DNA of 33,965 nt from a virus, in the IMG/VR virus record IMGVR_UViG_3300021962_000354, positions 1 through 33,965 of that record; one strand, 5' to 3'. The position numbers and the translations under genes were made by a program. Each line of letters begins with the position of its first letter. Position 1 is the stretch's first letter. The notes beneath the pieces are model-generated. The model was not told the origin of the DNA. It worked only from the letters and a program-made list of their open reading frames with translations, and did not search any database. Below are positions 4,053 through 31,540 of this stretch, piece after piece.

Positions 4053-6560
4053 CTAAAAGAAATCATCAGACAATTCCTTCTTAAAGTTAATAACGTAACA
4101 TTTTTTGTTGTTTTGACCCCGATCTCTCACCACTTTGTAGTCCATTTTTAAAATCCCGCACGTCTCTTCTATCGCCTTATTAAACCTTTTTAACGAGTAA
4201 TCTTTCTTATCATAACCCGTAAAAGTTAGGTAATCATTATAAAGTCTTTCTAGTGTAATGGTCAACCCACTCTCGCCCTCCAGTGTCATAAAATAATCTA
4301 GGAACTCTTCCCCGAACTGTACCCTAATTTGCTTACGGCTTAGACTCTCACTCATTGCCATTTCCGTTACCCCATTTTCTAGGTAATCCGATACGCAGTG
4401 AAACATCAAGTTAAAGTACCTATTCCACTCGTCCTTGTCCCAATCATTAAATAGCTTATGCCCAAACTCATCTTCGGGGGTATGCTTAGGCGAAAAGTAT
4501 GGCGCAAACTCAAATATCTTTTGCCTCCTTTTAGCATGGTTCCCCGAGTTAGGTATAGTATAGTTAGTGGTAAATATCACCTTTGGACTGTCCTTATAAG
4601 GGATTCTAAGCTCATCCTTGTTCTTTTTCTCGACGGTAATACCTTCGGTTATAATCGAGTAAAAACCCTCAAAATCGACGTTCTTACGGGTATCCTCAAT
4701 AGCTATAAGCCTAGTATCTAAATCAACCCTTTGAAAGGCAAAGTTCTTGTCTATCTTAAAGTTCTTGCCATCTACTACTACGAGATTCATTAAATAACCC
4801 AAGGCCTTTACAAAAATCCCCTTACCCGTTCCTCCTCCTTTGGCCTCGTTCTCGGTTTCTTCGGCGAGGATCACCGCAAACGGCCGAGCGGGGTCTTTAT
4901 ACTTATGCAGCAAATACCCTATCAAGGATAAGCAATACAATAACTTCTCATTATCTCCTCCACTAATCTTATCTAAAAACTTCAAGTACTCGCAGTTCTC
5001 AATCTTAAAGTCATCCTCAATATATATCTTATGGTCAATAACTTGAGACTTCCAGATCACTTTACCTATATCTCCATATGTCATTAACTTAACCGAGTCT
5101 TTTGTTACTTTCACTACTCCGTTGACAAATGGGAAGTAGCACTCATTCTTTGTATCTTCTAAAAAACTAATCTCCGCACGATCAAAGAACTCAAAAAAGT
5201 TATCGCTAAAGTAAGTGTTGGATCCCTTATAAATGGTCTCCATAAGTGTTTGTGGATCAAGCCCCATATCAAACGAACTTGGCAACCTATTGATAAACCC
5301 CTTTATAAATTTCTTGATTTGCTCAGTCGAGCTTTCCTCGACCATGCCATCTTGAATTCTTATAAGCCTATAAATAACCGAGTTGGGGTCATAAAAGTAC
5401 AAGCTAAAACCACCTTTCTCATTTAGAAACCTTTCGAGCTTATCTAGTTGTATGACGGGTGTAACAATGCCGTTCTTCTCTTTGGTCTCCCAAAACTCTT
5501 TAATCTCTGGACCGTATTCCTTATCAAGCGTTTCGATTATTTCGTTTGCTTCCGATACGCTTTTGTCATGCCTTTTTACAAGGAATGACACTAGCTCATC
5601 TCCACTAACTCCACTTCTTTTCTTCTCATATATCTCTTTTTCTAATTTGCTCCCAAAGTTTTGCTTTCTTTCTCCGTAACCTTCTTCGAGGAGTCTTTTG
5701 GCCGCCATCTTGAAGTCCGAGTTGCATTTGAGAATGGCATACACTGCTGCTGGCTTATAACCCCTACCAACTTGAAACGGCGTGTTCGTTGAGAATACGG
5801 AAAAGAGTCCCATCTCGGTATTAAATGACCCACTATGTTCACTTGCCGACCCTGGTCTGAGGTAGTAAATTCTATTGCCTCCATTCTTAACTTTTTGCCA
5901 GCCGCACTCTTCCATGAGCGCAGTGAAGTCGCATCGGTTATTATAGTCATCAAATGGCGAAAGTCCATAGTCTTTTGCAGAAGGCTTGTGATGAGCTTCA
6001 ATGATATGTTCTTCGACAACTTCATTGAAGGATCGCATAAGCGTGAGTAGCTCTTGCCGCTCCTCGATTGTAATAATATTGATGCCTTCTTGCAAGACCT
6101 CATAGCCACTCGAAGGCGGTGCCGCAACATAACCAGCCTCACCGCGTGTCTCAATGACACAGTAGGATTTGATATGAGGGTTGCTTTTAAACTCATCATT
6201 TGTTGGTAGCCTACTTGCCAACTTTTGATTCCCCTCAATCTCCTCACATTTATAGTAGAGGTGATACCCTCCGCTTCTAGTTTTGACAATATGCAATTTA
6301 TCATAAAGCTCTTGTCGGATTCTTCTTCTAATTTCATCCCAAAGCTCGTAGGTCTGATATTTTGTGTCAATGTCGATAACCTCCAAGCCTCCAGATATAG
6401 AGCCACAAATAATTGCCACTCCTTTGGCTCTAGGGTCGGCCATTTGTACATCAAGCTCCGCTTGTGTAATCTTCTGCGTTTGGTAAACTTTCCAAGGAAA
6501 GATGGCTGCTTTGTTTTCATTTATAGCAATTACGTTTAGTCCTAAATCCAAATAGTTCAT
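4053..6560 (-). CDS. Primase-polymerase / SF3-type helicase fusion protein
   Basis: An 835-residue replication protein. The N-terminal prim-pol (archaeo-eukaryotic primase) domain, about residues 1-180, has the catalytic DxD (VIDID, D63/D65) and the SGGYH motif with H100, and should make primers or short DNA strands. After a linker, the C-terminal helicase domain has Walker A GGGTGKG (575-581), Walker B LIAIED (618-623), the sensor TTNY (664-667) and a downstream RRQK arginine pair (678-681), the arrangement of phage D5/SF3 or NrS-1-type replicative helicases. A winged-helix-like tail follows. Its ATG overlaps the stop of the upstream methyltransferase (TAATG). It is the central replication gene; no separate DNA polymerase is seen in the window. 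Confidence 0.93.
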   Translation of the reverse strand: MNYLDLGLNVIAINENKAAIFPWKVYQTQKITQAELDVQMADPRAKGVAIICGSISGGLEVIDIDTKYQTYELWDEIRRRIRQELYDKLHIVKTRSGGYHLYYKCEEIEGNQKLASRLPTNDEFKSNPHIKSYCVIETRGEAGYVAAPPSSGYEVLQEGINIITIEERQELLTLMRSFNEVVEEHIIEAHHKPSAKDYGLSPFDDYNNRCDFTALMEECGWQKVKNGGNRIYYLRPGSASEHSGSFNTEMGLFSVFSTNTPFQVGRGYKPAAVYAILKCNSDFKMAAKRLLEEGYGERKQNFGSKLEKEIYEKKRSGVSGDELVSFLVKRHDKSVSEANEIIETLDKEYGPEIKEFWETKEKNGIVTPVIQLDKLERFLNEKGGFSLYFYDPNSVIYRLIRIQDGMVEESSTEQIKKFIKGFINRLPSSFDMGLDPQTLMETIYKGSNTYFSDNFFEFFDRAEISFLEDTKNECYFPFVNGVVKVTKDSVKLMTYGDIGKVIWKSQVIDHKIYIEDDFKIENCEYLKFLDKISGGDNEKLLYCLSLIGYLLHKYKDPARPFAVILAEETENEAKGGGTGKGIFVKALGYLMNLVVVDGKNFKIDKNFAFQRVDLDTRLIAIEDTRKNVDFEGFYSIITEGITVEKKNKDELRIPYKDSPKVIFTTNYTIPNSGNHAKRRQKIFEFAPYFSPKHTPEDEFGHKLFNDWDKDEWNRYFNLMFHCVSDYLENGVTEMAMSESLSRKQIRVQFGEEFLDYFMTLEGESGLTITLERLYNDYLTFTGYDKKDYSLKRFNKAIEETCGILKMDYKVVRDRGQNNKKCYVINFKKELSDDFF

Positions 6561-7216
6561 TAAAATAGTTTTAGTTGCGCTTTAAAGTCATTAAATCTTT
6601 TTTCTTGTGCGTCGTAATAATCCTTATCCAATTCAAATCCAGTAAAGTCAAACCCTAAGTCATAAGCCGCAATCCTACTTGATCCACTACCTAAATGTGT
6701 GTCTAATATTTTATCTCCTTGTTTAGCGTAGTTAGTTAAGAGCCATTTGTAAAGTGCAACTGGCTTTTGGGTAGGATGTATGCGAGTTTCTTTATTTTTC
6801 ATGTTTTGTTGTAACATACCACTCCATCTAAATGCAAATTTTCTTAAGCCAACATTAAATGATGTATAAGCTAATTCTCCATCACTAAATGAAACATCTC
6901 CATTTAATTTATCCCAAAAAATCCATCCAGATGACTTTTTAAATCTATATGGATAATGATTTGCACCCCAAATTATTTGATTTTTACTTATACGATATAT
7001 CTCATCAAAATATTTACTATCTGGTTCACTAAATTTCCATAAAGATTTATTATAATTTTTTTGTTTTGCAACTCCACCACCTTTACCAGATGTGTAACCA
7101 CCTTTAATGTTATCATTACCATAAGGCGGGTCAACAATAGCTAGTTCAAAATACTTATCTGGGTATTTTGCCATTCCTTCCATGCAATCCATGTTAAATA
7201 CTTCGATAGTTGGCAT
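6560..7216 (-). CDS. DNA methyltransferase, beta class (N6-adenine or N4-cytosine)
   Basis: An S-adenosylmethionine-dependent DNA amino-methyltransferase of 218 residues. Motif IV DPPY is at residues 29-32, HPTQKP at 147-152, and motif I is the unusual DTHLGSGSS (172-180) in place of the common DPFxGSGT. The order IV before I marks the beta class. I start at the ATG at 7216, two bases past the upstream stop; a longer reading begins at 7252 but would overlap the upstream gene. No cognate restriction gene is nearby, so it is an orphan methyltransferase, probably protecting phage DNA. Target sequence unknown. Confidence 0.92.
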   Translation of the reverse strand: MPTIEVFNMDCMEGMAKYPDKYFELAIVDPPYGNDNIKGGYTSGKGGGVAKQKNYNKSLWKFSEPDSKYFDEIYRISKNQIIWGANHYPYRFKKSSGWIFWDKLNGDVSFSDGELAYTSFNVGLRKFAFRWSGMLQQNMKNKETRIHPTQKPVALYKWLLTNYAKQGDKILDTHLGSGSSRIAAYDLGFDFTGFELDKDYYDAQEKRFNDFKAQLKLF

Positions 7217-7217
7217 T

Positions 7218-7490
7218 TTAAATATTTTTATAACAGTAAATATCAATATCATCTAGCGATCTTACTACTCTTGCAAATACGCCATGCTTATTAAGATCAG
7301 CTATTCTTTTTTCTTGTAGTGGTGCTACAACTCCCTTCTCTGTTTTCACTTCGAGGAACATAACAAATCCTTTTCGTATGCACATTAAATCTGGTATGCC
7401 ATTCATATTGGTCTGGATCAATTTAATGCACGACCAGCCATGTCTATTCAATCTATCAACGATCTTTTTCTGTAATTCTGCTTCTCTCAT
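7218..7490 (-). CDS. VRR-NUC domain nuclease
   Basis: A small nuclease of 90 residues consisting of a single VRR-NUC (PD-(D/E)XK superfamily) domain. Visible residues are an N-terminal Glu (REAELQ), GIPDL with the metal-binding Asp (D34), LEVKTEKG (E47, K49) and the downstream PLQEKR (Q59). Family members act as structure-specific or Holliday-junction nucleases, and in phages they serve recombination and replication. The ATG at 7490 overlaps the previous stop as ATGA, so I prefer it over the in-frame TTG at 7499. It lies in the replication block between small unknown genes and the methyltransferase. Confidence 0.9.
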   Translation of the reverse strand: MREAELQKKIVDRLNRHGWSCIKLIQTNMNGIPDLMCIRKGFVMFLEVKTEKGVVAPLQEKRIADLNKHGVFARVVRSLDDIDIYCYKNI

Positions 7491-7708: not shown

Positions 7709-8130
7709 AGAATCAAAATATTTTTATCCATAAAATTTATAATCACTTTACTTGGCATCATTATTCCGTTCTCGCACTCCACTTCAAAAGCTACATTCCA
7801 ATCTTTCTCGGTCATGGTGTTTACGAACAAAAGCCCTTCGTAAAACTCACCACTTTTGTAAAGCTGGTTATTCTCACCAAGTCTAACGATATCTTTACTA
7901 CGCAAATCATCTTCATGTATTCGAAAGGTAATAATGCAACTTGCTCTTTCAACCAAACCACGAATGTAACTAATGCCTTCGCTATTAAAAAATATTTCTA
8001 CGTCCCACCATAGCTTATTCTCCGTTTTGCTTTCCCACCAATCTATCTCGGTTTGTGGTGGTAGGCCTAAGGCATAGTAAAGATGTTCGCACTCAATAGT
8101 GAATAGAGTCGAGGTAATTTTTTGTGTCAT
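7705..8130 (-). CDS. Hypothetical protein (141 aa)
   Basis: A soluble, acidic protein of 141 residues with many aromatic residues (for example DWWESKTENKLWWDVEIFF near residues 29-47) and a mixed alpha/beta look. No family recognised. Its start lies within the 3' end of the small membrane-protein gene at 8093-8257 (38-base overlap), and its stop is shared with the TTG start of the next gene. It is probably an early auxiliary protein, judged by its neighbours only. Confidence 0.6.
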   Translation of the reverse strand: MTQKITSTLFTIECEHLYYALGLPPQTEIDWWESKTENKLWWDVEIFFNSEGISYIRGLVERASCIITFRIHEDDLRSKDIVRLGENNQLYKSGEFYEGLLFVNTMTEKDWNVAFEVECENGIMMPSKVIINFMDKNILIL

Positions 8131-8257
8131 TGTAGAGTTTTTTAATGAGGTAATTTATTGTTAGGATCATCATAAAACATAGTGTAAAAGGTACACAAAA
8201 GAGCATCCAATAGGCTACCCAAGCAAATACTTTTAATAGTGCAAGCATAATTTTCAT
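8093..8257 (-). CDS. Small membrane protein (54 aa)
   Basis: A 54-residue ORF. Residues 3-38 are almost wholly hydrophobic (from IMLALLKVFAWVAYWML through LTINYLI), enough for one long or two short membrane helices, followed by a basic and polar tail. The ATG at 8257 overlaps the stop of the upstream helicase gene as ATGA, the same coupling used by other genes in this operon, which supports it as real. It overlaps the next gene by 38 bases. Without it the helicase would be followed by an unusual 123-base gap. Function unknown. Confidence 0.6.
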   Translation of the reverse strand: MKIMLALLKVFAWVAYWMLFCVPFTLCFMMILTINYLIKKLYNDTKNYLDSIHY

Positions 8258-9501
8258 TTTAAGTAATCTATCTTAAAGTGATTAAGAGTATAATCCTTCT
8301 TATTCATCACTGCTTTATATATCTTATCCTCAATCCCGTTATAGCTAAATATCCAATAAATCTGAGCCGACTCGGTACGATCCTTTGTCTGTATCCTTGC
8401 TCTACTCTGCCAATACGATGTCGCACTAAAGTCAATATTATAAAACACTAACGCATCCGCACTCGAAAGATTAAGCCCCTCTCGCCCGCTCACGATTTGC
8501 GATACAAATACGGCATCATTACTCGCCTTGTTAAATGCCGCCGCATCTATCTCAATCCTACTACCAAACACCCACAGTAATGCTGCATACTCCGCTTGAA
8601 ACTTATAAAATATAGCAATCTTTTTACCCGCAAATTTCTCTTTAATAAACTCAGCTTTGGTATAGTCAAAGGCCTTTGCTACTCGCTTAGGCTCATCGAC
8701 AATCACCGAGCCGCTATATATTTGGTGCAGCTTATTCATCAACTTTACCGCAGTATCTCCCATGACAGTCTCTCCGTCTTTATTCGTTACCATTTTATCT
8801 CTACGTATCTTGTCAGCTAGCTTATACGTGCTATCATCCATTTTAACGTATAAGATATTCTCTTCTATTAGTCCCTCAAATCCCGCTTGGGCTTGGGTGA
8901 ACGTGATCATAATTGGTTTTATATCTTCCATAATTTTTTCTTCGTATGCAAGTGAGTAATCATTAATTGCTCTATTAAATACATATTTCTTTTGAAGTAT
9001 AACATAATCATTTGCCCATTGGTAAAAGGTCTTATACTTTTTATATACCGAGTAACTAGATATGTATAACTGGTGATAAATCTGTGAGTAAGATTCTGGT
9101 GTAGGTGTGCCACTCAAAAAGATAATTGGCGTTGCTGCACAAATTCTTTTCAGCTCCTTTGCTCTTTTAGATGGCCTTGGGAAAGCACCGAGTCCATGCG
9201 CCTCATCTACGATCACAACATCCCATCCGTACTCTACTTTATGAAGCTGCTCAAAATTGGTTATATATATCTCCATATCATAGCCCATGCTTTTTGCTTG
9301 CTCAATGATGTCATCAATGGCTTTCTTTTTAGTGCAGAATAGTACCTTCTGTGCGCCGAATTTATAAGCCGATGCAAGTGCCGTCAAAGTCTTGCCAGTC
9401 CTCACTTCCATAGCGAGGTATGCAATCTTGTGATACTTCAATAACTTAGCCGCTCGATCACTAATCTCTATTTGGTAATCTCTAAGATTCATCCTCTTCA
9501 T
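8254..9501 (-). CDS. SF2 DNA helicase, SNF2/DEAH-like
   Basis: A 415-residue ATP-dependent helicase or translocase. Motif Q/I region: LRDYQ near the start and EVRTGKT with the Walker lysine (residues 32-38). Motif II DEAH is at 99-102 and motif III SGTPT at 130-134. In the C-terminal RecA-like domain, VSGREGLNLSSAD (motif V) and WQSRARIQTKDR (motif VI with arginine fingers) are present. This is close to SNF2-like helicases found in many phages beside recombination nucleases. The ATG at 9501 gives a 20-base overlap with the upstream gene; an in-frame ATG at 9492 is also possible. It probably aids replication or recombination with the PD-(D/E)XK nuclease encoded just upstream. Confidence 0.9.
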   Translation of the reverse strand: MKRMNLRDYQIEISDRAAKLLKYHKIAYLAMEVRTGKTLTALASAYKFGAQKVLFCTKKKAIDDIIEQAKSMGYDMEIYITNFEQLHKVEYGWDVVIVDEAHGLGAFPRPSKRAKELKRICAATPIIFLSGTPTPESYSQIYHQLYISSYSVYKKYKTFYQWANDYVILQKKYVFNRAINDYSLAYEEKIMEDIKPIMITFTQAQAGFEGLIEENILYVKMDDSTYKLADKIRRDKMVTNKDGETVMGDTAVKLMNKLHQIYSGSVIVDEPKRVAKAFDYTKAEFIKEKFAGKKIAIFYKFQAEYAALLWVFGSRIEIDAAAFNKASNDAVFVSQIVSGREGLNLSSADALVFYNIDFSATSYWQSRARIQTKDRTESAQIYWIFSYNGIEDKIYKAVMNKKDYTLNHFKIDYLK

Positions 9502-13069: not shown

Positions 13070-13518
13070 AGGTATTTTTTATAGGCAAACGCTCCCACTC
13101 CTATAATCGCTATCCATAGCCATGTGTAAAATAATGCTTTGCTTTTGCGATCGAATCGATCCTCAAGGATCATATAATCTTTATCCTTAGCCTCGTAAAG
13201 CACTTTATATTTATCATCCCATTTTGTCTCGGTAATGTAAATAGTGTCTTTTAACTCTTTAATTATAGTTCTGATTTTTGTCTTTATCTCTGGCTCTGAG
13301 TAATGATCCTCTACAAGCCAAGTATAGATGCTATCTACCTTTTGCTTAATTATCAAGGAATCCTTGACAATTCGAATAGTGTCTATTTTGCTTTCTTGAG
13401 GAAACTGTTCGAGGCATAATTTTGCCGCTTGAACGGGGTGTTCATCGAGGTATTTACGAACTTTATTCGTTGTTATACACGATGTGAATAAAAAAATAAT
13501 GGGTAAGTACTTTAGCAT
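13066..13518 (-). CDS. Putative one-piece spanin (u-spanin)
   Basis: A 150-residue protein with an N-terminal lipoprotein-type signal (LPIIFLFTSC, with C14 the likely lipidated cysteine) and a C-terminal membrane helix (about residues 129-146, LFYTWLWIAIIGVGAFAY) ending in KKYL. The roughly 110-residue region between is polar and mixed beta/coil. A lipoprotein at one end and a membrane anchor at the other is the defining layout of unimolecular spanins, which fuse inner and outer membranes in the last step of lysis. It sits directly after the endolysin gene, overlapping by 7 bases, which supports the role. Confidence 0.72.
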   Translation of the reverse strand: MLKYLPIIFLFTSCITTNKVRKYLDEHPVQAAKLCLEQFPQESKIDTIRIVKDSLIIKQKVDSIYTWLVEDHYSEPEIKTKIRTIIKELKDTIYITETKWDDKYKVLYEAKDKDYMILEDRFDRKSKALFYTWLWIAIIGVGAFAYKKYL

Positions 13519-14099
13519 AAAATTGATGTGAAAAGTTTTGTTTTAGATATGCGGTCGGCTAGGCCATTAAACCCGCCGTTGATTCTTCTTGTAAGGTGTT
13601 TGATTGTCTCATCGCTTCCATCTCTAGCCGCTAGGTTCCATAGCACTTTCACTTCAAAGAACCATGCGGCACTAAGCAAAGGATATTTAGTTGCAACCAG
13701 GTCTGGATTTGCTATTAAGTCAACACTTATATAATCGCCAAATGCTTTATAATTTACCTTACCCGTAAGTTGTAAATATCCACGTCCCCGAAAAAGAAAC
13801 CCCTCTTTTGCATTATTACCCATGCGTAAGCCATAAACCATATTGCCTATCAACTCTGGCTTTCTAGCCGCTATTTCTGCGGTGTCTTTACTAAAATATC
13901 TTGGGAATGTTTTGAGAAGGCCTTGTGCGTTATAATTAAGGTTCTCACGCACGTATTTAAAGTTACCGCTCTCATGTGCTACCTGGCCTAGAAAGTGCGC
14001 TAAAACAAGCGGGTTATTAATTTTAAACGTATCGATAACACTTGGTAGCTCATCAAGAACCTGCTTCGGAAGAGTTGTTATCAGCTTTTTGGTCAACAT
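13512..14099 (-). CDS. GH19-family endolysin
   Basis: A peptidoglycan-cleaving lysozyme/chitinase-type enzyme of 195 residues from the ATG at 14099 (an in-frame TTG at 14129 would add ten). It has the GH19 catalytic motif region FLGQVAHESGNF with catalytic Glu at about residue 43, then NYNAQGLLKTFPRYF, and the family block FRGRGYLQLTG about 60 residues later. There is no signal peptide, so release depends on the holin encoded just upstream, whose gene it overlaps by 47 bases. Followed by the spanin, it completes a standard holin-endolysin-spanin cassette. Confidence 0.9.
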   Translation of the reverse strand: MLTKKLITTLPKQVLDELPSVIDTFKINNPLVLAHFLGQVAHESGNFKYVRENLNYNAQGLLKTFPRYFSKDTAEIAARKPELIGNMVYGLRMGNNAKEGFLFRGRGYLQLTGKVNYKAFGDYISVDLIANPDLVATKYPLLSAAWFFEVKVLWNLAARDGSDETIKHLTRRINGGFNGLADRISKTKLFTSILC

Positions 14100-14295
14100 C
14101 GGCGAACATATTTGAGATGAATTTGCCAACCCAACCGCTAATAAATACGGCTATGGCTATCTCTTTATGTCCCTCTAGTATTGTCATAGTAGATACAAAA
14201 ACACTAGCAGCAGCAAGAGAATCTCCAAAAAGCCTAATCTTTTTAGGTGTCGGATGAAAATAATATTTAAGTCCAAACTTCATTGTTAAATTCAT
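14053..14295 (-). CDS. Putative holin
   Basis: An 80-residue membrane protein with two probable helices (LFGDSLAAASVFVSTMTIL, about 23-41, and IAIAVFISGWVGKFISNMF, about 47-65), a basic N-terminus and a polar, acidic C-terminal tail. Size, topology and position immediately upstream of the endolysin all fit a holin that opens the inner membrane. A second in-frame ATG at 14283 could give a shorter form; dual starts are known to tune holin timing. It overlaps the upstream gene by 29 bases. Confidence 0.75.
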   Translation of the reverse strand: MNLTMKFGLKYYFHPTPKKIRLFGDSLAAASVFVSTMTILEGHKEIAIAVFISGWVGKFISNMFADVDQKADNNSSEAGS

Positions 14296-15386: not shown

Positions 15387-18300
15387 TTAATTTAATTTTG
15401 CTTCTAATTTTTCAATCCTTTCCATAGCCTCTTGCAAAGCCTTAATAGCTTTCATATAAAGAATGCTATATTTTACGGTTTTTATATGCCCATCAACAAC
15501 TTTTTCGCCATCAATGAATTTATAATTTGGAATATTGTCAACAAGATTTGGGCTTATTAATTCTAATTCTTGAGCAACTACTCCAATGTGATATGGGTAA
15601 TTAGGGTCAGCAGCTACTTCATCCTTTAATCTAAATTTCCTAACAGTTAGATTTTTAATGTCATTCCATTGAGATGAGGCATCAATAATATCTTGTTTTA
15701 AATTTATATCAGATACGGATGTATAAGTATTTGTACGAGAGTTAAATGTACCGTTTGACCAAATAATAGCTTTTACATTTGTGCTATCTTGACAATATAA
15801 AAAGTATTGGTCTAAGTTATTTGGAGTTGCTGCACTAAATGTGATACTTTGACCAAATGGTTGTGATGCTGCTTTATGTCTTAATGATAATGTATCTGAG
15901 GCAGCAGTAGTCCCAGTAAATTCGTGATATGTTCCAGTAGAACCTATATATGTTCCATCATTACTCGCCTTTAAGTACCCCCCACTCGTTATGCGCATTC
16001 TTTCGGTTCCAGCAGTATAAAATTCATGTCTTTCTGGTGTGGAAAATCTTATTGGGTCAACAGATGCAGCAATATGTACTGCTAAATTATCAGTATAAAA
16101 TGTACCATATCTTGCGTTGTCTGACCGATAAACCCTTAATTCTCCTGCTGACTTAACCTCTACATTCCCCCCACTCGTGATGCGCATGCGTTCGGCTGAG
16201 TTTGTGTAAAATATCATTGGGTCATCAGTTGTGGTAGCAATTTGCATTTGATTATTACCTACGGCTACAACACCAGCAGCATTACTTGATTCTAATTTTA
16301 ATATAGACCCATTTGTACTATTTTGATATATATGTAAAAGTGTTGCACTTGCATTCCAATCTGAAGCACTTGGCGAAGTAGTCCCGATTCCGACATTGCC
16401 GCCACCAGTAATAGTTAATCTTGTAGTATTATCAGTAGCTATAAATACATTACCATTAACACTATTCCATAAGTTTAAATTTGTACTATTATGATAAAGA
16501 TAACCTTTTAATGTACCTGCAACAGTAAAAGAAATCATTGCATTAGATGAACCATTTATATTAAATGCAGTTCTACCCGCCTCTATTGTTGGGTTATAAT
16601 TACCACCAAATCTAAAGTCCGTTCCATCTGCTCTTAAATCACTGCTAAACGTAGCTGCGCCGGTTGAAGAGATTGTGAGTCTCGCAGTATTATTTGTCAT
16701 GATGTTGAAACCATGACTTGTAGTTGTTCCAATATATCCTTGATTGTTTTCGGTATTTATACCAAATTCAGCAGTAGATACGTTTACTATTCTAAAATAA
16801 TATCCTCTTACACCAGTATTAAAAGTAGATAAGCCAGTGTTATAATTAAGAGATAAAAGATTAGTTGTACCAGCTGAAAAATCAAGTACATTACTTGCAC
16901 TTGTGTACATACCTCTTGATGGTACAGAAGTGCCAGTTGGGATAAATGCAGTTGCAGTTATTGTATCCGCACCAGTAACTGCTGAATTAAATGTAGTTAG
17001 TCCGCCAAAATAGTTTCTTTTAGCAGAGTCGTTTTGATAAATGCCATATCTTGTAACACCTGCATATCCAGCAGTATTGTCTGTATAATCTACCCAAAGC
17101 CCAAACAAATTATCAAAGTTAGCAGTTGCAGTCAATGTACCAGCCAATCTCATTGCAACCGCTTGACCACCACTTGCACTCTTTGAACCAAAGTGTGTAT
17201 ATATCGCAGTATCAGCTTGGCTACCTAAATTAAAGTTGCCACTATTTGATGTGAATGATGCGGTTGTGCCTATTAATCCGCCAGTTAATGTTCCTCCAGT
17301 TAATGGCAAATATCCACTTAACGCAGATCCATAATTTGGTATATTTAGGGTTGCACCTACTAATGTTGCAGCTCCACTTGATCCAGTAGTTGTTAATGTA
17401 ATAGCATTTTGCTTAGTATTAAATGTACTCCAATCAGCACTACTCAAAGCACCTCTATTTGTTGCTGATGCAGTAGGTAAATTAAATGTATGCGTACTTG
17501 TGCTTGAGCTTATTGCAAAGTCAGTACCGCTTGTTCCAACTGCAAAAGTCTGTGTTGCTGCAGTTAATCCGTTTAAAGAAGTTATTGCTGCACTAATATA
17601 AGTAGGAGTAAAATATTCCAAAGCAGTAGCTCCAGAGTTTACTCTAAGTAATTGTCCTGAAGTTCCTAAAGATGAAAGTCCAGTACCTCCTCTTGCAATT
17701 GCAAGTTGTCCACTCCATCCTATTGTGTGTGTTGAACTTGCTGAAGTTATTATAACATTTGTATCATTTGCAAATGTCTGTGTTGCTCCAGTTAAGCCAT
17801 TTAGACTTGTAATGGCAGCACTTATGTAAGTAGGAGTCCAGTTTACCCATTTACCAGATGTACTATTATATTGCAAAAGCTGACCATTGCTTACACTTGT
17901 AATAGTCGCATCATCAAGATCATTCACTCCAATGCTTACAATCCCAGTCTGTCCATTTACACTCGCAACGGCGTTTGAGCCAGTGGACTTTTGCCATACA
18001 GAGCCATTGTACATGACCCAATCTCCGGCATCAAATGTGATTGATCCGCTACCTAGGTTTTGTGTACCTCCTACGCTCACTATATATACATCCCCAGCAT
18101 CTCCCGTTCCATCGGCCAAAGTCGGTGTGTTAGTGCTTGCATTCCAAGTCCCTTTGTACTCAATTACACTTGATGGCAATTGGGCAGCTGGGATTTTACC
18201 CCCAGCATCAAGGCTCGCATAACCGTTGTTCTGACCTTTTTCGCTCGTTGCTTGGTAAGTTGTACTATCAAGCGATCCATCCCCTTTCAAGAACTGCGAT

Positions 18301-18458
18301 GATGTACCACTCGCAATATAATTTTGTATGCGTTGATTACCCCCTGCACCTTTACCAATGTAAAGGTCATAAGTGTCGGTAGTGAACAAAGGCTCGGCAA
18401 GCTGTCCTTGTGGGATTGTTGCATTCGTGCCTCTTTTTATCTTTAATGTATTTGCCAT
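15387..18458 (-). CDS. Tail fibre with C-terminal S74 autoproteolytic chaperone domain
   Basis: A 1023-residue receptor-binding fibre. The N-terminus (LKIKRGTNATIPQGQLAEPL, then FTTDTYDLYIG) is the attachment module seen in many phage fibres. The middle is a long Ser/Thr/Gly-rich beta region with recurring units (TPTYISAAITSLNGLT twice; RLTITGGGNVGIG and ERMRITSGG repeats). The last 108 residues are a peptidase S74 intramolecular chaperone: SDINLKQDI, with the likely self-cleavage serine near residue 916, and HIGVVAQELE, ending in a coiled coil. The chaperone should trimerise the fibre and cut itself off. Confidence 0.92.
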   Translation of the reverse strand: MANTLKIKRGTNATIPQGQLAEPLFTTDTYDLYIGKGAGGNQRIQNYIASGTSSQFLKGDGSLDSTTYQATSEKGQNNGYASLDAGGKIPAAQLPSSVIEYKGTWNASTNTPTLADGTGDAGDVYIVSVGGTQNLGSGSITFDAGDWVMYNGSVWQKSTGSNAVASVNGQTGIVSIGVNDLDDATITSVSNGQLLQYNSTSGKWVNWTPTYISAAITSLNGLTGATQTFANDTNVIITSASSTHTIGWSGQLAIARGGTGLSSLGTSGQLLRVNSGATALEYFTPTYISAAITSLNGLTAATQTFAVGTSGTDFAISSSTSTHTFNLPTASATNRGALSSADWSTFNTKQNAITLTTTGSSGAATLVGATLNIPNYGSALSGYLPLTGGTLTGGLIGTTASFTSNSGNFNLGSQADTAIYTHFGSKSASGGQAVAMRLAGTLTATANFDNLFGLWVDYTDNTAGYAGVTRYGIYQNDSAKRNYFGGLTTFNSAVTGADTITATAFIPTGTSVPSRGMYTSASNVLDFSAGTTNLLSLNYNTGLSTFNTGVRGYYFRIVNVSTAEFGINTENNQGYIGTTTSHGFNIMTNNTARLTISSTGAATFSSDLRADGTDFRFGGNYNPTIEAGRTAFNINGSSNAMISFTVAGTLKGYLYHNSTNLNLWNSVNGNVFIATDNTTRLTITGGGNVGIGTTSPSASDWNASATLLHIYQNSTNGSILKLESSNAAGVVAVGNNQMQIATTTDDPMIFYTNSAERMRITSGGNVEVKSAGELRVYRSDNARYGTFYTDNLAVHIAASVDPIRFSTPERHEFYTAGTERMRITSGGYLKASNDGTYIGSTGTYHEFTGTTAASDTLSLRHKAASQPFGQSITFSAATPNNLDQYFLYCQDSTNVKAIIWSNGTFNSRTNTYTSVSDINLKQDIIDASSQWNDIKNLTVRKFRLKDEVAADPNYPYHIGVVAQELELISPNLVDNIPNYKFIDGEKVVDGHIKTVKYSILYMKAIKALQEAMERIEKLEAKLN

Positions 18459-26629: not shown

Positions 26630-27069
26630 TATTCTTTAATTATATTTTCCATTCTTTTAATCATTATAGGAAACACTTCCCTTACTGATGGATAAAAAAA
26701 TGGTTGAGCTGGAGTATGCCCATCTCTTTTTTTACTTTTAAATAACCAAGCATATTCTTTCCAATCTTCTTCTAATGTAGGAGTATATTCCTTAGCTGCT
26801 GGACCAGTACCAAACTCTACATAAGCAGCATATCTAATATCTGATTTTAATCTATAAGATAATTGGCTATCTTTCTTAGTTGTAATACTATTTCTTAATA
26901 AACCAGTATCAACTGGCGCTCTTTGTTTAGATTTTGTAGCCATTTCTTCAACGGATGCTGCCATTTCAGCATCAAGTTCATTAATTAGATTTTCAGTAGC
27001 ATTTTTTATATTCTTAAAAAGTTTATCAAATGCTGCATTTTGATTTTTAAAAAATATACCGTCAGCCAT
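26629..27069 (-). CDS. HK97 gp10-like head-tail joining protein
   Basis: A 146-residue protein with the family core KQRAPVDTGLLRNSI (about 48-62), then AAYVEFGTG (about 81-90) and the C-terminal PAQPFFYPSVREV (about 119-131), all hallmark segments of HK97 gp10-like neck proteins. It probably sits at the head-tail interface with the tail terminator. It overlaps each neighbour by one base, consistent with coupled translation. Confidence 0.9.
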   Translation of the reverse strand: MADGIFFKNQNAAFDKLFKNIKNATENLINELDAEMAASVEEMATKSKQRAPVDTGLLRNSITTKKDSQLSYRLKSDIRYAAYVEFGTGPAAKEYTPTLEEDWKEYAWLFKSKKRDGHTPAQPFFYPSVREVFPIMIKRMENIIKE

Positions 27070-27629
27070 TAAATAACTACCTTTTTATATTGATGATAAT
27101 TTAACCCATCCCAGTTAGGATATTGGCTAATAAGTGCTTGAGGATCAGCGTTCATCTTCTTGCCTCTGTTCTCATACTGCCAAGCCACCAAAGCCATAAT
27201 ATCGTTTGCTATGTCCTCTGGAACTGAGCTATAACCACTTTGGTATTGCACCTCATAGTTGCCTTGCGTATAAAGCCACAATTTGCCCGCAATCACCTCG
27301 TAGTCATCATTCTTAGTAAGTGTTTCCCAGCTATTTATGCCAGTTTTTATTTTTACACTGTCAATACAAATAACTGGTCCATAAGGCAAATCTACCATCC
27401 AAACGCTTGGCTCATAGCCAGTTGTCTGAATATAGCTTTTAAGCAACTTATTTACAAACGCTACCCCAGTTAGTTTCTCAATATGTATTCTTGAAGCATT
27501 GATCAGTGATTGTATTAAAGTATCATCTGATGTATAATCAATTCGCATCCAATTCTTTGCGTCAGTTAAGCTCACTGGTTCAACGACCCCATCAGCTAAG
27601 ATCGCCGTTCCGTTTATATATATCGCCAT
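27069..27629 (-). CDS. Head-tail connector, gp6-like adaptor
   Basis: A 186-residue adaptor. PVSLTDAKNWMRIDYTSDD, then LIQSLINASRIHIEKLTG (about 18-56) is the helical signature of gp6/DUF3199-type connectors, followed by a beta region (VQYQSGYSSVPEDIANDIMA) and the final helix. It binds the portal ring and receives the tail. Between it and the capsid gene lie the two glycosyltransferase genes, which is unusual for a head-to-tail gene order. Confidence 0.88.
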   Translation of the reverse strand: MAIYINGTAILADGVVEPVSLTDAKNWMRIDYTSDDTLIQSLINASRIHIEKLTGVAFVNKLLKSYIQTTGYEPSVWMVDLPYGPVICIDSVKIKTGINSWETLTKNDDYEVIAGKLWLYTQGNYEVQYQSGYSSVPEDIANDIMALVAWQYENRGKKMNADPQALISQYPNWDGLNYHQYKKVVI

Positions 27630-27634
27630 ACTTA

Positions 27635-28603
27635 CTAATATTTATTAACCATTTCTCTGAACCAGGTCTCAAACTCATCAAGCGCTTTTCTCGGGTCATG
27701 CTCTCTTGATCTCTCTTTTGCTTTTTTGGATGCCTCACTATATTTTTTGGTGTCATCCAGTTCAGTAATTGCCTTAACCCAGCTTTTAATATCATTCCTA
27801 TCTTTTATAAAGATACCCGCTTTCCCACAGTTTTCAACCAACCCATCGGCCATCGAGCTTATAACGGGGATTCCACTGCACATTGCCTCGGTTGCCGTTC
27901 TGCCCCAACTCTCATAATCGCTTGGCATTAATAGTATCCTTGTTTGCTTATAGTATTGCGCAATATCGGGCGTATTAGGCACTAATTTTAAATTTGGAAG
28001 GCTAGATATCATTTGCTGATCATAGCTCCCCAAAACGCCTAAAAAACGCTTATTTGGCAATGCACGAGCAATCTCTTCAAATATCTTTCCGCCTTTGTTC
28101 TCGTTGGTGTTAATCAGAGTAATGTATTCGTTCTTCGCTGGATCAATCTTAAGGTCATAAATCCGATAGTCAACGGGAGGCGTTAGTATAAAGTTATCCC
28201 ATTTGTAATTTAATTTCTCTTTTAGCCATAAAGAGTTATACACAACGTGTTGATTGCGTTCTGCGTTAATGATTTCGGGGTAAGGATGGCTATTATGAAT
28301 AAGATGAAATACGGGTTTTTTGTAAAGTTTGGCAGCTCCTACTGTCCATCTTGTATAGTCCAAATGCGTTATTACCGCATGACTCCAACGCATTAAATTG
28401 TCAACTACGTTTTCATTTGGCGGAAAAACATCAATGCCATCAAAAACATAATTATTTTTAATTCGATATTTATTTGCTTGATGCAAAAGCACTCTTATAT
28501 TATGTCCTTTGCTTTGCAAATGTTTGTGCATATGATGAATCATCCATTCTGCACCGCAATTATGCTCTGGAGGATAAAGATGTATCGAAGCTACAATATT
28601 CAT
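27635..28603 (-). CDS. GT-B glycosyltransferase, family 4-like
   Basis: A 322-residue enzyme expected to transfer a sugar from a nucleotide-sugar donor. N-terminal domain: MNIVASIHLYPPEHNCGAEW (the GxE acceptor-side motif at 17-19). The linker is followed by the donor-binding half with NTNENKGG (165-172), VLGSYD (190-195), and the E-x7-E motif PSDYESWGRTATEA (E231, E239) followed by MCSGIPVISS. It has no signal or membrane helix, so it is cytoplasmic. It overlaps the GT25-like gene by ATGA and precedes the connector gene by 5 bases. A capsid or tail protein target is inferred from location. Confidence 0.85.
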   Translation of the reverse strand: MNIVASIHLYPPEHNCGAEWMIHHMHKHLQSKGHNIRVLLHQANKYRIKNNYVFDGIDVFPPNENVVDNLMRWSHAVITHLDYTRWTVGAAKLYKKPVFHLIHNSHPYPEIINAERNQHVVYNSLWLKEKLNYKWDNFILTPPVDYRIYDLKIDPAKNEYITLINTNENKGGKIFEEIARALPNKRFLGVLGSYDQQMISSLPNLKLVPNTPDIAQYYKQTRILLMPSDYESWGRTATEAMCSGIPVISSMADGLVENCGKAGIFIKDRNDIKSWVKAITELDDTKKYSEASKKAKERSREHDPRKALDEFETWFREMVNKY

Positions 28604-29163
28604 AGTATTTTATTTGCGGAGCCATCAAAGATATTTGTATAATCTGCATGATGATTCCATAGTGGAGAGTAATGTGGTTTTTGCCAAGCTATCATCGGAG
28701 AGATGATAAAACTTTTCATTTGTGGTTGTATATATCGTAAAAGCCAATCATCAAATTGATGAGTCATGTCATTATAGCTTTCACATAATTTTTTCGGATT
28801 GTTGTATAATACGGCATGGGTTGTCCAAGCTCCGTTTACTTTAAATAGATTATCACTATATCTAAAATATTCGCCAATGATATTGGCCCCTAAATAACAA
28901 AGCTCCCAATCGCTAGGAAGTTGTGATATAGCAGATTCAAAATGATCACATTTTCTTATCTCAACATCATCCTCAAACATCATAAGCACATCTGCTTCGC
29001 AGTTGCTCACAATGTCTTTCATTGACAAGTTAAAGCTAATTTTGGCATCCTCGTGCTTTATAGCATAATAGGCTTGTGCGTTGTATCCTAATTTGGAAAC
29101 TTCTCTTTTTGCTTGTACAAGTCTATCGGATGCGTTTAGAGTTGTAAGTATTTTTATTTCCAT
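28600..29163 (-). CDS. Glycosyltransferase family 25-like protein
   Basis: A 187-residue putative GT-A glycosyltransferase. The centre has FEDDVEI (63-69), a DxD-type metal and nucleotide-sugar site, preceded by the strand ADVLMM, with GAWTTHAVLYNNPKKL (about 111-126) and QFDDWLLRYI later, the pattern of LPS-type GT25 proteins. It starts at ATG 29163, right after the T-run of the terminator at 29167-29194. Together with the next gene it may build a short glycan. The acceptor is unknown; the neighbouring capsid protein is one candidate. It could also act on host surface sugars. Confidence 0.72.
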   Translation of the reverse strand: MEIKILTTLNASDRLVQAKREVSKLGYNAQAYYAIKHEDAKISFNLSMKDIVSNCEADVLMMFEDDVEIRKCDHFESAISQLPSDWELCYLGANIIGEYFRYSDNLFKVNGAWTTHAVLYNNPKKLCESYNDMTHQFDDWLLRYIQPQMKSFIISPMIAWQKPHYSPLWNHHADYTNIFDGSANKIL

Positions 29164-29166
29164 AGT

Positions 29167-29194
29167 AAAAAAAAGGGAGACTTACGGGTCTCCC
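29167..29194 (-). terminator. Strong rho-independent terminator after the major capsid gene
   Basis: On the minus strand: GGGAGAC-CCGTAA-GTCTCCC (7-bp perfect stem, 6-base loop) followed by eight T. It lies just after the capsid stop and ends 3 bases before the start codon of the GT25-like gene, so the downstream glycosyltransferase and tail genes should depend on read-through. Confidence 0.9.
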
Positions 29195-29215: not shown

Positions 29216-30391
29216 TTAGATTGCACCATAGATACAAGCTGAAGGTTGGAATTGCATCAAATCGCAACGAGCTTCGCAACGGAAAGTGATCAAGTTCTTT
29301 ACGAAATCGTCTTGATCGAATTCAGTTGAACGAACTGCAAGTCCGCTCTGTTGAGCAATAGAGAACTTAGTAGTGTCAAGAACATAAGCCTTAGACGCTG
29401 TAACCAAGCTATGAGGAACAACGGGAATACCCATCATTCTGATGTTACCTTGAGCATCAATTGTGATACCACCAGGAACAGAGTAAGAACCACCAGAAGG
29501 AACGGTTTTCAATACGTTAGCCCAACCAGCGTGTGTGGTCAAGATAAGGTTTGCGTTCCAGTTTGCTGATCCCAACTGAGCAACATAATCTACGAACTTC
29601 TCGGCAGTGTTAGCACCACTAGATACACCAGCAGTTGCGCTAGAAGCGAGGTCGTTCAAGTAATATGTATCTTCAGCTCTTTGGAAATCTTCAATCAAAG
29701 ATTGCTGCAAATATGCGTTCAAGAAAGGAAGATCATCAACCATTTGGCGAGATACCTTTACATAGCCAGCGATGAATTGCAACACTTTGTTTACAACTGT
29801 TACATCGTAGTCCAATTGTGCTTTAGCAGAACCTTCAGTTTGCTTACCGAAAGAACCTTCACCAACTGGAGTGTTTCCACGAGGGAAAGATACTGAACCA
29901 GTTGAAACTGGGATGATGTTGAATACACTTCTGAGGTGTGGGTTAACGAAAGCACGAAGTGCTGGAGAGTTGATGTAAGAAACATAAGGGTTACCAGTAA
30001 GGTTAGAAGCCTCTGTCATTACACCTACGGTTTTAAGATCCAACTCGAAGTTGAAACCTTTACCGTTTGATCTAACTGCTTCTTTAATTGAATCGTAACC
30101 TTTTACGATTGCATCGCCGATTGCAGATTTGATCTCAGCAATATGCTCGTTGTAAGATTGTGCAACTTTCTTAGTCTCAGCAGCACCAATTTTACCAAAT
30201 GCAGCTTTAGCAGCGAGAACTTCTTCTCTTGCTTCAGCAATTGTTTTGTTGTTTTTTGCGAGTTGCTCGTTGATAGCCTCAACTTTGCTTTCGAAAGACT
30301 TAGCAGCCTTCTCAGTAGCAGCAGCAACTTCAGCTTTCTGCTCGGCCATTTTGGCTTCGAGAGCAGCTTCAAATGTTTTAATGTCGCTCAT
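29216..30391 (-). CDS. Major capsid protein, HK97 fold
   Basis: A 391-residue capsid subunit. Residues 1 to about 110 are a Lys/Glu/Ala-rich coiled coil (FEAALEAKMAEQKAEVAAAT onward), equivalent to the delta/scaffolding domain removed by the prohead protease encoded just upstream. The remainder carries the capsid-family blocks (NPHLRSVFNIIPVSTGSVSF, then the VPGGITIDAQGNIRMMGIPV region and the C-terminal DDFVKNLITFRCEARCDLM, split by turns). It is surrounded by protease and terminator, as expected for the most strongly expressed late gene. Cysteines are few. Confidence 0.92.
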   Translation of the reverse strand: MSDIKTFEAALEAKMAEQKAEVAAATEKAAKSFESKVEAINEQLAKNNKTIAEAREEVLAAKAAFGKIGAAETKKVAQSYNEHIAEIKSAIGDAIVKGYDSIKEAVRSNGKGFNFELDLKTVGVMTEASNLTGNPYVSYINSPALRAFVNPHLRSVFNIIPVSTGSVSFPRGNTPVGEGSFGKQTEGSAKAQLDYDVTVVNKVLQFIAGYVKVSRQMVDDLPFLNAYLQQSLIEDFQRAEDTYYLNDLASSATAGVSSGANTAEKFVDYVAQLGSANWNANLILTTHAGWANVLKTVPSGGSYSVPGGITIDAQGNIRMMGIPVVPHSLVTASKAYVLDTTKFSIAQQSGLAVRSTEFDQDDFVKNLITFRCEARCDLMQFQPSACIYGAI

Positions 30392-30400
30392 TTTGTTAAT

Positions 30401-31540
30401 TTAAAATTTGTTTATAATATTTATTAAATACTCAACTGGAACCTCTTCTTCTTTTTGCTGCGCGGGTGTCTCATCGACTGCCTTTGTGCTACTCATACGT
30501 TCAATCAGTTCAGCGAGTTGTTTCACTTTTAACATACACAAATCAATTGTCTCATCCGTTACATCACTGTTGCGGATAAATTTCTCAAAAGATTTGATTT
30601 GATCTTGTATTTGCTCAATGTTATTCATATTCTTCATGCCTAGTAATGGAGTTGCTTCGTTTGCTCCCCATGCAGTAAGGCTTGAACCTTCAAAAAGCAT
30701 TACTTCATGGATTTGGTTAGCATCTCCACTTTTTTGCTCTCTTAGTGTTTTAAATCCGATTGAGTGTTCGGCAATAAGCCCACTCTCAATCATCTTGATA
30801 TAATCTTGACCAAGGTTGTGTTTACCAACCTTGCTCTCATAATAAAGTCCGTACTCGTCCTCTTTCAACACTTGTATTTTACCAAGCGGCTTAGATGGAT
30901 CATGGTTAAGTAGATGCTTAATTCTTCCTTTTCCTTCTGGTCCCCAATCTTGGATTGATCTTTTAAATGCACCTGGCATCATTATATCGCCATCGCTATC
31001 TACATTGCCAAATGCGGAGAAATAACCAGTTACAACTCCTTGCTTAGTATCAACATCTTTAACCTCTAGGTTAAATGATTTGTAATTGTATATCATGCTT
31101 TTTCTATTGTCTATTTGCTCTAATTTACGAATTGCCCAATTAATGCCCGCATCACCTCCCCAAGCGTCCCACATAAGGCCACCGCAACCCTCTGAATAAG
31201 GCACATCTTTGTTTTGTTGATGCCTTTTAAATGATGCCATTCTAGCAATGGTATCACGAGATATTTTCTCACGACTTGCTAGTTGATTTGCTCTTGTCCA
31301 ACCTACGGATGTTCCGCAATCACTGCCATTCTCCTCTTTCCATTTTAATGCTCTTTTTGCATTGTTAGTAGCCGCTTCGGGGTAGTCGTTATAATTTTCT
31401 TCTTTCAACTCCAAACTTTTCTCGCCTTCTTGCGCAAGATAAGCCGCATACGCACGCTCCGCACTATCACGTGATGTATAAATACATTCACCGTCTTTCC
31501 CAATCGCATATTTACCGTTTGAACAAGCGTATATTGGCAT
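30401..31540 (-). CDS. Prohead protease with extra N-terminal domain
   Basis: A 379-residue serine protease of the HK97 prohead (U35) family. The catalytic domain starts near residue 150: GYFSAFGNVDSDGDIMMPGA (172-191), LLNHD with catalytic H213, EHSIGFK with S260, and FEGSSLTAWGAN with E284, matching the His-Ser-Glu triad. Before it, residues about 45-145 form another domain (NDYPEAATNNAKRALKWKEE, then CGTSVGWTRANQLA, then GCGGLMWDAWGGDAG) with conserved Cys, Trp and Gly that I recognise from phage proteins of unknown role. The C-terminal coiled coil may aid scaffolding. It removes the capsid N-terminus during maturation. Confidence 0.9.
   Translation of the reverse strand: MPIYACSNGKYAIGKDGECIYTSRDSAERAYAAYLAQEGEKSLELKEENYNDYPEAATNNAKRALKWKEENGSDCGTSVGWTRANQLASREKISRDTIARMASFKRHQQNKDVPYSEGCGGLMWDAWGGDAGINWAIRKLEQIDNRKSMIYNYKSFNLEVKDVDTKQGVVTGYFSAFGNVDSDGDIMMPGAFKRSIQDWGPEGKGRIKHLLNHDPSKPLGKIQVLKEDEYGLYYESKVGKHNLGQDYIKMIESGLIAEHSIGFKTLREQKSGDANQIHEVMLFEGSSLTAWGANEATPLLGMKNMNNIEQIQDQIKSFEKFIRNSDVTDETIDLCMLKVKQLAELIERMSSTKAVDETPAQQKEEEVPVEYLINIINKF

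Follow-up and report, generated by a model that had tools for sequence, protein, structure and literature searches.

Two adjacent glycosyltransferase (GT) genes in the head module of a virus probably form a virion glycosylation cassette that is coupled to the capsid gene. The DNA analysed is a virus record from IMG/VR with a length of 33,965 bases, the whole of which is called the window here. We assign this reading a probability of roughly 70%. It draws on the folds and conserved motifs of the enzymes, purifying selection, gene order, a conserved terminator and gene swaps at one position of the cassette, as well as on the same enzyme classes being used by mycobacteriophage Che8.

Two glycosyltransferase genes in the head module

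On the minus strand, the window carries in order the genes for the portal, a MuF-like protein, the S78 prohead protease, the major capsid protein (MCP), a GT25-like protein, a GT4 protein, a gp6-like connector, a gp10-like protein, the tail terminator and the tail tube, with further genes onward. The HK97-type MCP (29216-30391, minus strand; Pfam Phage_capsid 5.4e-18; phrog_10, major head protein, 1e-30) is the upstream anchor of the cassette, and the head-tail connector (27069-27629, minus strand; PF05135 1.1e-9; phrog_442, head-tail adaptor, 1e-17) is the downstream anchor. Between them, a gene at 28600-29163 encodes the GT25-like protein of 187 aa and a gene at 27635-28603 encodes the GT4 protein of 322 aa, both on the minus strand. 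The stop codon of the former and the start codon of the latter overlap in an ATGA (28600-28603, minus strand), an arrangement of translational coupling. An initial annotation had proposed this overlapping pair in the head module, with the MCP and the gp6-like connector as its neighbours, and behind the MCP a 7-bp hairpin with eight T that ends three bases (ACT) ahead of the first GT start codon; all of this proved correct on reading the letters.

Other genes of the same strand have features of their own. The protease (30401-31540) bears about 150 extra N-terminal residues ahead of its Peptidase_S78 match (157-299). A 1023-aa probable tail fibre or tip protein (15387-18458) starts with Mtd_N (major tropism determinant) and ends in a C-terminal S74 self-cleaving chaperone, and a GH19 chitinase-type endolysin candidate lies at 13512-14129.

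Judged from its sequence and its structural model, the 322-aa protein is a standard GT4, of the retaining type. It contains a Glycos_transf_1 domain (PF00534, 1.7e-14), matches phrog_26352 (6e-68) and carries the E231-x7-E239 and HN motifs, which are invariant from the Bacteroidota-type through the Streptomyces members of the family. Its AlphaFold model (pLDDT 94) has a GT-B fold, and Foldseek matched it to MshA, PglA, PimA, BshA and SdgB, the last of which we take to be a GT4 that glycosylates proteins. The median dN/dS of 0.12 over 30 comparisons corresponds to purifying selection. The family phrog_26352 is annotated as ‘unknown function’ in PHROGs.

The 187-aa protein had no sequence match in searches of Pfam, PHROGs or the PDB, and fold prediction was therefore used. 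The AlphaFold model (pLDDT 92) shows a GT-A fold nearest to GT25 structures, with human COLGALT1 (GT25) and mimivirus R655 as the top Foldseek matches at a sequence identity of about 10-14%; the PBCV-1 capsid glycosyltransferase structures stand lower in the same list. Conserved motifs are FEDDV, DDWL, WTTHA and a C-terminal QKPHxSxLW, with the acidic EDD kept, and the gene is under purifying selection (median dN/dS 0.17, six comparisons). The protein thus has the fold and the EDD motif in common with the GT25 family (COLGALT1, mimivirus R655 and bacterial LPS enzymes), but differs from it in its short length, its low identity and the lack of a match to Pfam Glyco_transf_25 (PF01755). Because of this lack, we call it GT25-type by fold and not a sequence member of the family; in the relative L245, the corresponding protein gives a sub-threshold Glyco_transf_25 match of 0.034. 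The earlier view of the pair as a GT-A enzyme and a GT-B enzyme is borne out by the predicted folds and the motifs, and both enzymes look active.

The 52-base gap between the MCP gene and the first GT gene contains a terminator-like hairpin with a T-run (29167-29194, minus strand). The hairpin, GGGAGAC-CCGTAA-GTCTCCC at 29194-29175, has a 7-bp stem and a 6-nt loop, and is followed by eight T (29174-29167), the bases ACT and the ATG at 29163. Its folding energy by itself is unremarkable (z = -1.6). Of 113 distinct relatives, 108 have a hairpin with a T-run at most 100 bases after the MCP gene, irrespective of the gene that follows, whereas none occurred in shuffled controls or after nearly all other tested gene families (3/79 after tmp, 3/7 after HNH genes), so the terminator is beyond chance. 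One stem pair covaries in the clade of the window (A-T, T-A and G-C). The hairpin is a probable attenuator of the downstream genes, and compared with the capsid, the GT enzymes are probably made in small amounts, which would suffice for catalysts. Terminators behind the capsid gene that reduce downstream expression are known in other phages, for example T7.

One possible alternative is that the two enzymes alter the host envelope, through LPS/O-antigen-type conversion or superinfection exclusion, and that they merely happen to lie in the late operon. Members of the GT25 and GT4 families often take part in making LPS and polysaccharides (Pfam description of PF01755), and this wider role in surface glycans, LPS included, counts against the virion reading. 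Serotype-converting phage GTs are well known, for example from SfI (PMC3636060). However, in gtr-type serotype-converting modules the GT is accompanied by the membrane flippase GtrA and by membrane GTs, whereas no flippase, polymerase or membrane-anchored GT was found beside the window pair among the best-matching Pfam and PHROG families. Late and probably attenuated expression would also suit surface conversion less well than the modification of a virion protein, and we consider envelope modification unlikely.

Capsid linkage and an exchangeable slot

IMG/VR loci were collected via matches to the MCP, the GT25-like protein or the GT4 protein; a GT4-first collection used GT4 as the only query, so that capsid neighbours were not favoured. 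The gene order in relatives is protease, MCP, one or more slot genes, GT4 and gp6. In the GT4-first loci with distinct proteins, a same-strand MCP is present in 97, the contig ends at most 1.7 kb upstream in 32, and four show no MCP that could be recognised; three of these four are long clusters as described below, and the fourth is L323. Over the entire set, 167 of the 169 loci with both genes have the MCP upstream of GT4 and on its strand (156 within 1.5 kb). L263 and L264, two candidate exceptions to this linkage, were rejected as frame-joining artefacts, and their MCP is adjacent upstream. L323, the one remaining exception to this linkage, has a divergent GT4 gene and then a SAM methyltransferase gene (around 7989-9483), with no recognised capsid gene in the 7.8 kb upstream.

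The same GT4 family also occurs in unrelated prophages of Streptomyces: of 393 genomes sampled from one genus group, 36 carry it. Wherever the MCP was recovered at these loci, GT4 directly follows it (16/16), and a head-closure gene lies downstream in 15/16. The cultured Streptomyces phage TurkishDelight encodes gp20, a protein with two GT4 domains, between the MCP and the major tail protein. The family is rare in Bacteroidota genomes (1/395). The cassette is not universal, since in the more distant cultured flavophages phi10:1 and 11b nothing but small genes separates the MCP from the connector.

The initial annotation had named a random placement of GT genes in close relatives as a refutation; these loci exclude it, as GT4 stays by the capsid gene throughout. 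The comparison it proposed, of whether the pair always adjoins the capsid gene, came out positive for GT4 and negative for the GT25 position, which is often held by a methyltransferase. The pair is therefore not a fixed unit; only GT4 and the capsid context are constant. This constant link spans distantly related capsids and Streptomyces, which further argues against modification of the host envelope.

In distant relatives, a longer cluster occupies the site between MCP and gp6, with genes for a GT25-like protein, a conserved unassigned protein, an FkbM-like protein, a GT11 fucosyltransferase and GT4. It is found in two Bacteroidota MAG contigs (L245 and L246), whose capsids are only 28-33% identical to the window MCP, and in IMG/VR loci L274-L276, L282, L284 and L320. 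Such a long glycan-building set at the MCP-gp6 site matches the prediction of virion glycosylation.

Another alternative is that the enzymes hypermodify phage DNA, in a glucosylation-like manner, against restriction. DNA-modifying phage GTs are known (Pyle 2024, as cited in PMC12619734), and the window itself encodes an N6/N4 DNA methylase (6560-7252, minus strand), which adjoins a prim-pol replication protein (4053-6560). However, GT4 pairs with the capsid gene and not with replication genes, no modified-base synthesis genes were found among the proteins scanned, and the Foldseek matches are GTs that act on small molecules, lipids or proteins. DNA modification is thus highly improbable.

Among 90 distinct MCP/GT4 pairs, the slot between the two genes contains a GT25-like gene in 40, a class I SAM methyltransferase gene in 31, an FkbM methyltransferase gene in eight and both GT25 and FkbM in six, and a few of the slots are broken by HNH endonucleases. 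Two candidates for an empty slot were rejected and are not counted as slot-less, because L117 has a methyltransferase frame and L234 looks frameshifted. On the MCP tree, the slot content changed at least 18-20 times, compared with about 38 times when the labels were shuffled. Near-identical MCPs carry different slot genes, and so the slot is independent of the MCP sequence. Between the window and L081/L082, the flanking DNA is mostly 93-100% identical whereas the slot (29163-28600) is about 23-56% identical, which in the sequence comparison is a clean cassette exchange.

The start of the GT4 gene (the first ~250 bases, 28603-28350) is 80-88% identical between the window and slot-swapped relatives, compared with 90-100% for the rest of the gene. 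The acceptor-side domain of GT4 may thus be touched by the exchanged tract or by co-adaptation. On trees of the GT4 parts, 17 slot changes were counted for the N-terminal part, 22 for the middle and 24 for the C-terminal part; these counts are only suggestive of an N-terminal part that travels with the slot gene. HNH homing endonucleases (NUMOD4/HNH_3) lie around the slot gene in L027, L040, L050, L059, L060, L075, L110 and L246, and such enzymes might drive slot exchange by gene conversion.

The frequent change of slot content and the insertion of HNH endonucleases there resemble an insertion hotspot. They would suit a third alternative, in which the enzymes are cargo (‘moron’) genes that settled in a permissive spot behind the terminator and have no direct link to the virion. 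However, GT4 takes no part in the exchange and shows purifying selection (median dN/dS 0.12), the enzymes exchanged in the slot are all of sugar-tailoring types and not random cargo, and the same GT4 family recurs by the MCP in Streptomyces prophages. We therefore regard the cargo explanation as quite improbable.

A proposed mechanism of virion glycosylation

Virion glycosylation is the best-supported reading, and the three alternatives are less likely. From the genes we infer a model of enzyme activity, acceptor, order of steps, sugar identity, reduced dosage and purpose. Upon late expression, GT4 would transfer a core sugar from a host nucleotide-sugar to a head or tail protein in the cytoplasm. 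Since the MCP gene is the one neighbour that stays constant, its product would be the likeliest acceptor. The slot enzyme would then tailor the core sugar: the GT25-type enzyme of the window would add a second sugar, and in relatives a SAM- or FkbM-type methyltransferase would O-methylate the sugar, or both enzymes would act. The terminator behind the MCP gene would allow much capsid and, via read-through, little enzyme to be made. Exchange of the slot gene by recombination would alter the exposed sugar and leave the capsid sequence unchanged.

A search of the window MCP for an acceptor site, by comparison with the MCPs of the GT-less phages phi10:1 and 11b, found none to assign, as there is no C-terminal extension and no obvious Ser/Thr-rich insert. 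The lack of an extension counts against the virion reading, since the glycosylation sites of mycobacteriophages have been reported at C termini (PMC12619734).

As to product and purpose, the initial annotation had suggested that the pair could build a disaccharide, and that shielding of the capsid or adhesion might be served. One rather doubtful speculation is that a change of the outer capsid-glycan residue by a one-gene swap would amount to antigenic variation of the particle without antibodies. Since the transfer would take place in the cytoplasm, next to the capsid gene, the glycan may keep host defence sensors of major capsid proteins, or an environmental lectin-like recogniser, from detecting the capsid protein. 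The slot swaps would then be the trace of an arms race.

Taken together, our results suggest that the particles of many aquatic phages bear a sugar coat, a feature so far shown mainly in mycobacterial phages. If the virion reading is true, glycosylation of the particle is not peculiar to actinobacterial phages and forms an integral part of the head module in a large aquatic Bacteroidota-type group, and the GT4 family phrog_26352 becomes a sequence marker of virion glycosylation. The exchange of sugar-extending and sugar-methylating enzymes in one slot would then provide natural close pairs, such as the window and L081/L082, that differ by a single glycan change.

Comparison with known systems

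Phage-encoded virion glycosylation has been shown for mycobacteriophages (Freeman et al. 2023, as described in PMC11600133, PMC12363180 and PMC11256854). Since it is established there, the cassette is not the undescribed kind of system that the initial annotation had taken it for. Che8 gp110 and Corndog gp38 are named as essential for capsid glycosylation (PMC12363180), and an O-methyltransferase with three GTs in Cluster O phages is said to modify the capsid and the tail tube (PMC11600133). These mycobacteriophage systems (Che8 gp108-gp110; Corndog gp38 and its neighbours) consist of soluble phage GTs and a sugar O-methyltransferase, and the window group likewise encodes phage GTs, with or without a sugar methyltransferase. 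By analogy, the window system, known here from its genes, would work like mycobacteriophage virion glycosylation.

Both kinds of system also have an enzyme of GT25 type: we found that Che8 gp110 is a GT25 by Pfam (PF01755, 1.2e-7), and the slot enzyme of the window is GT25-type by fold. In other respects the two differ. Che8 gp108 is a GT2 fused to a TylF-type methyltransferase; the window uses a GT4 instead, which has no detectable sequence similarity to gp108. The Che8 GT genes lie at the right end of the genome, whereas the window genes stand directly behind the capsid gene. This distance from the capsid gene and the lack of similarity between gp108 and GT4 count against the virion reading. 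Moreover, GT25 and methyltransferase alternate in one slot in the window group, unlike in the mycobacteriophage systems.

The phrog_26352 GT4 of Streptomyces phages and prophages is of the same family as the window GT4, to which it is about 30-38% identical, and occupies the same position between the MCP and a head-tail gene. It usually stands alone, tandem-duplicated or fused, and no slot for GT25 or methyltransferase was seen in the Streptomyces loci examined, whereas the window has one. In the open-access subset of the literature searched, we found neither the exchangeable slot nor a capsid linkage of this breadth. Relative to the known systems, the novelty lies in the Bacteroidota-type lineage, in the fixed link to the capsid gene and in the exchangeable slot.
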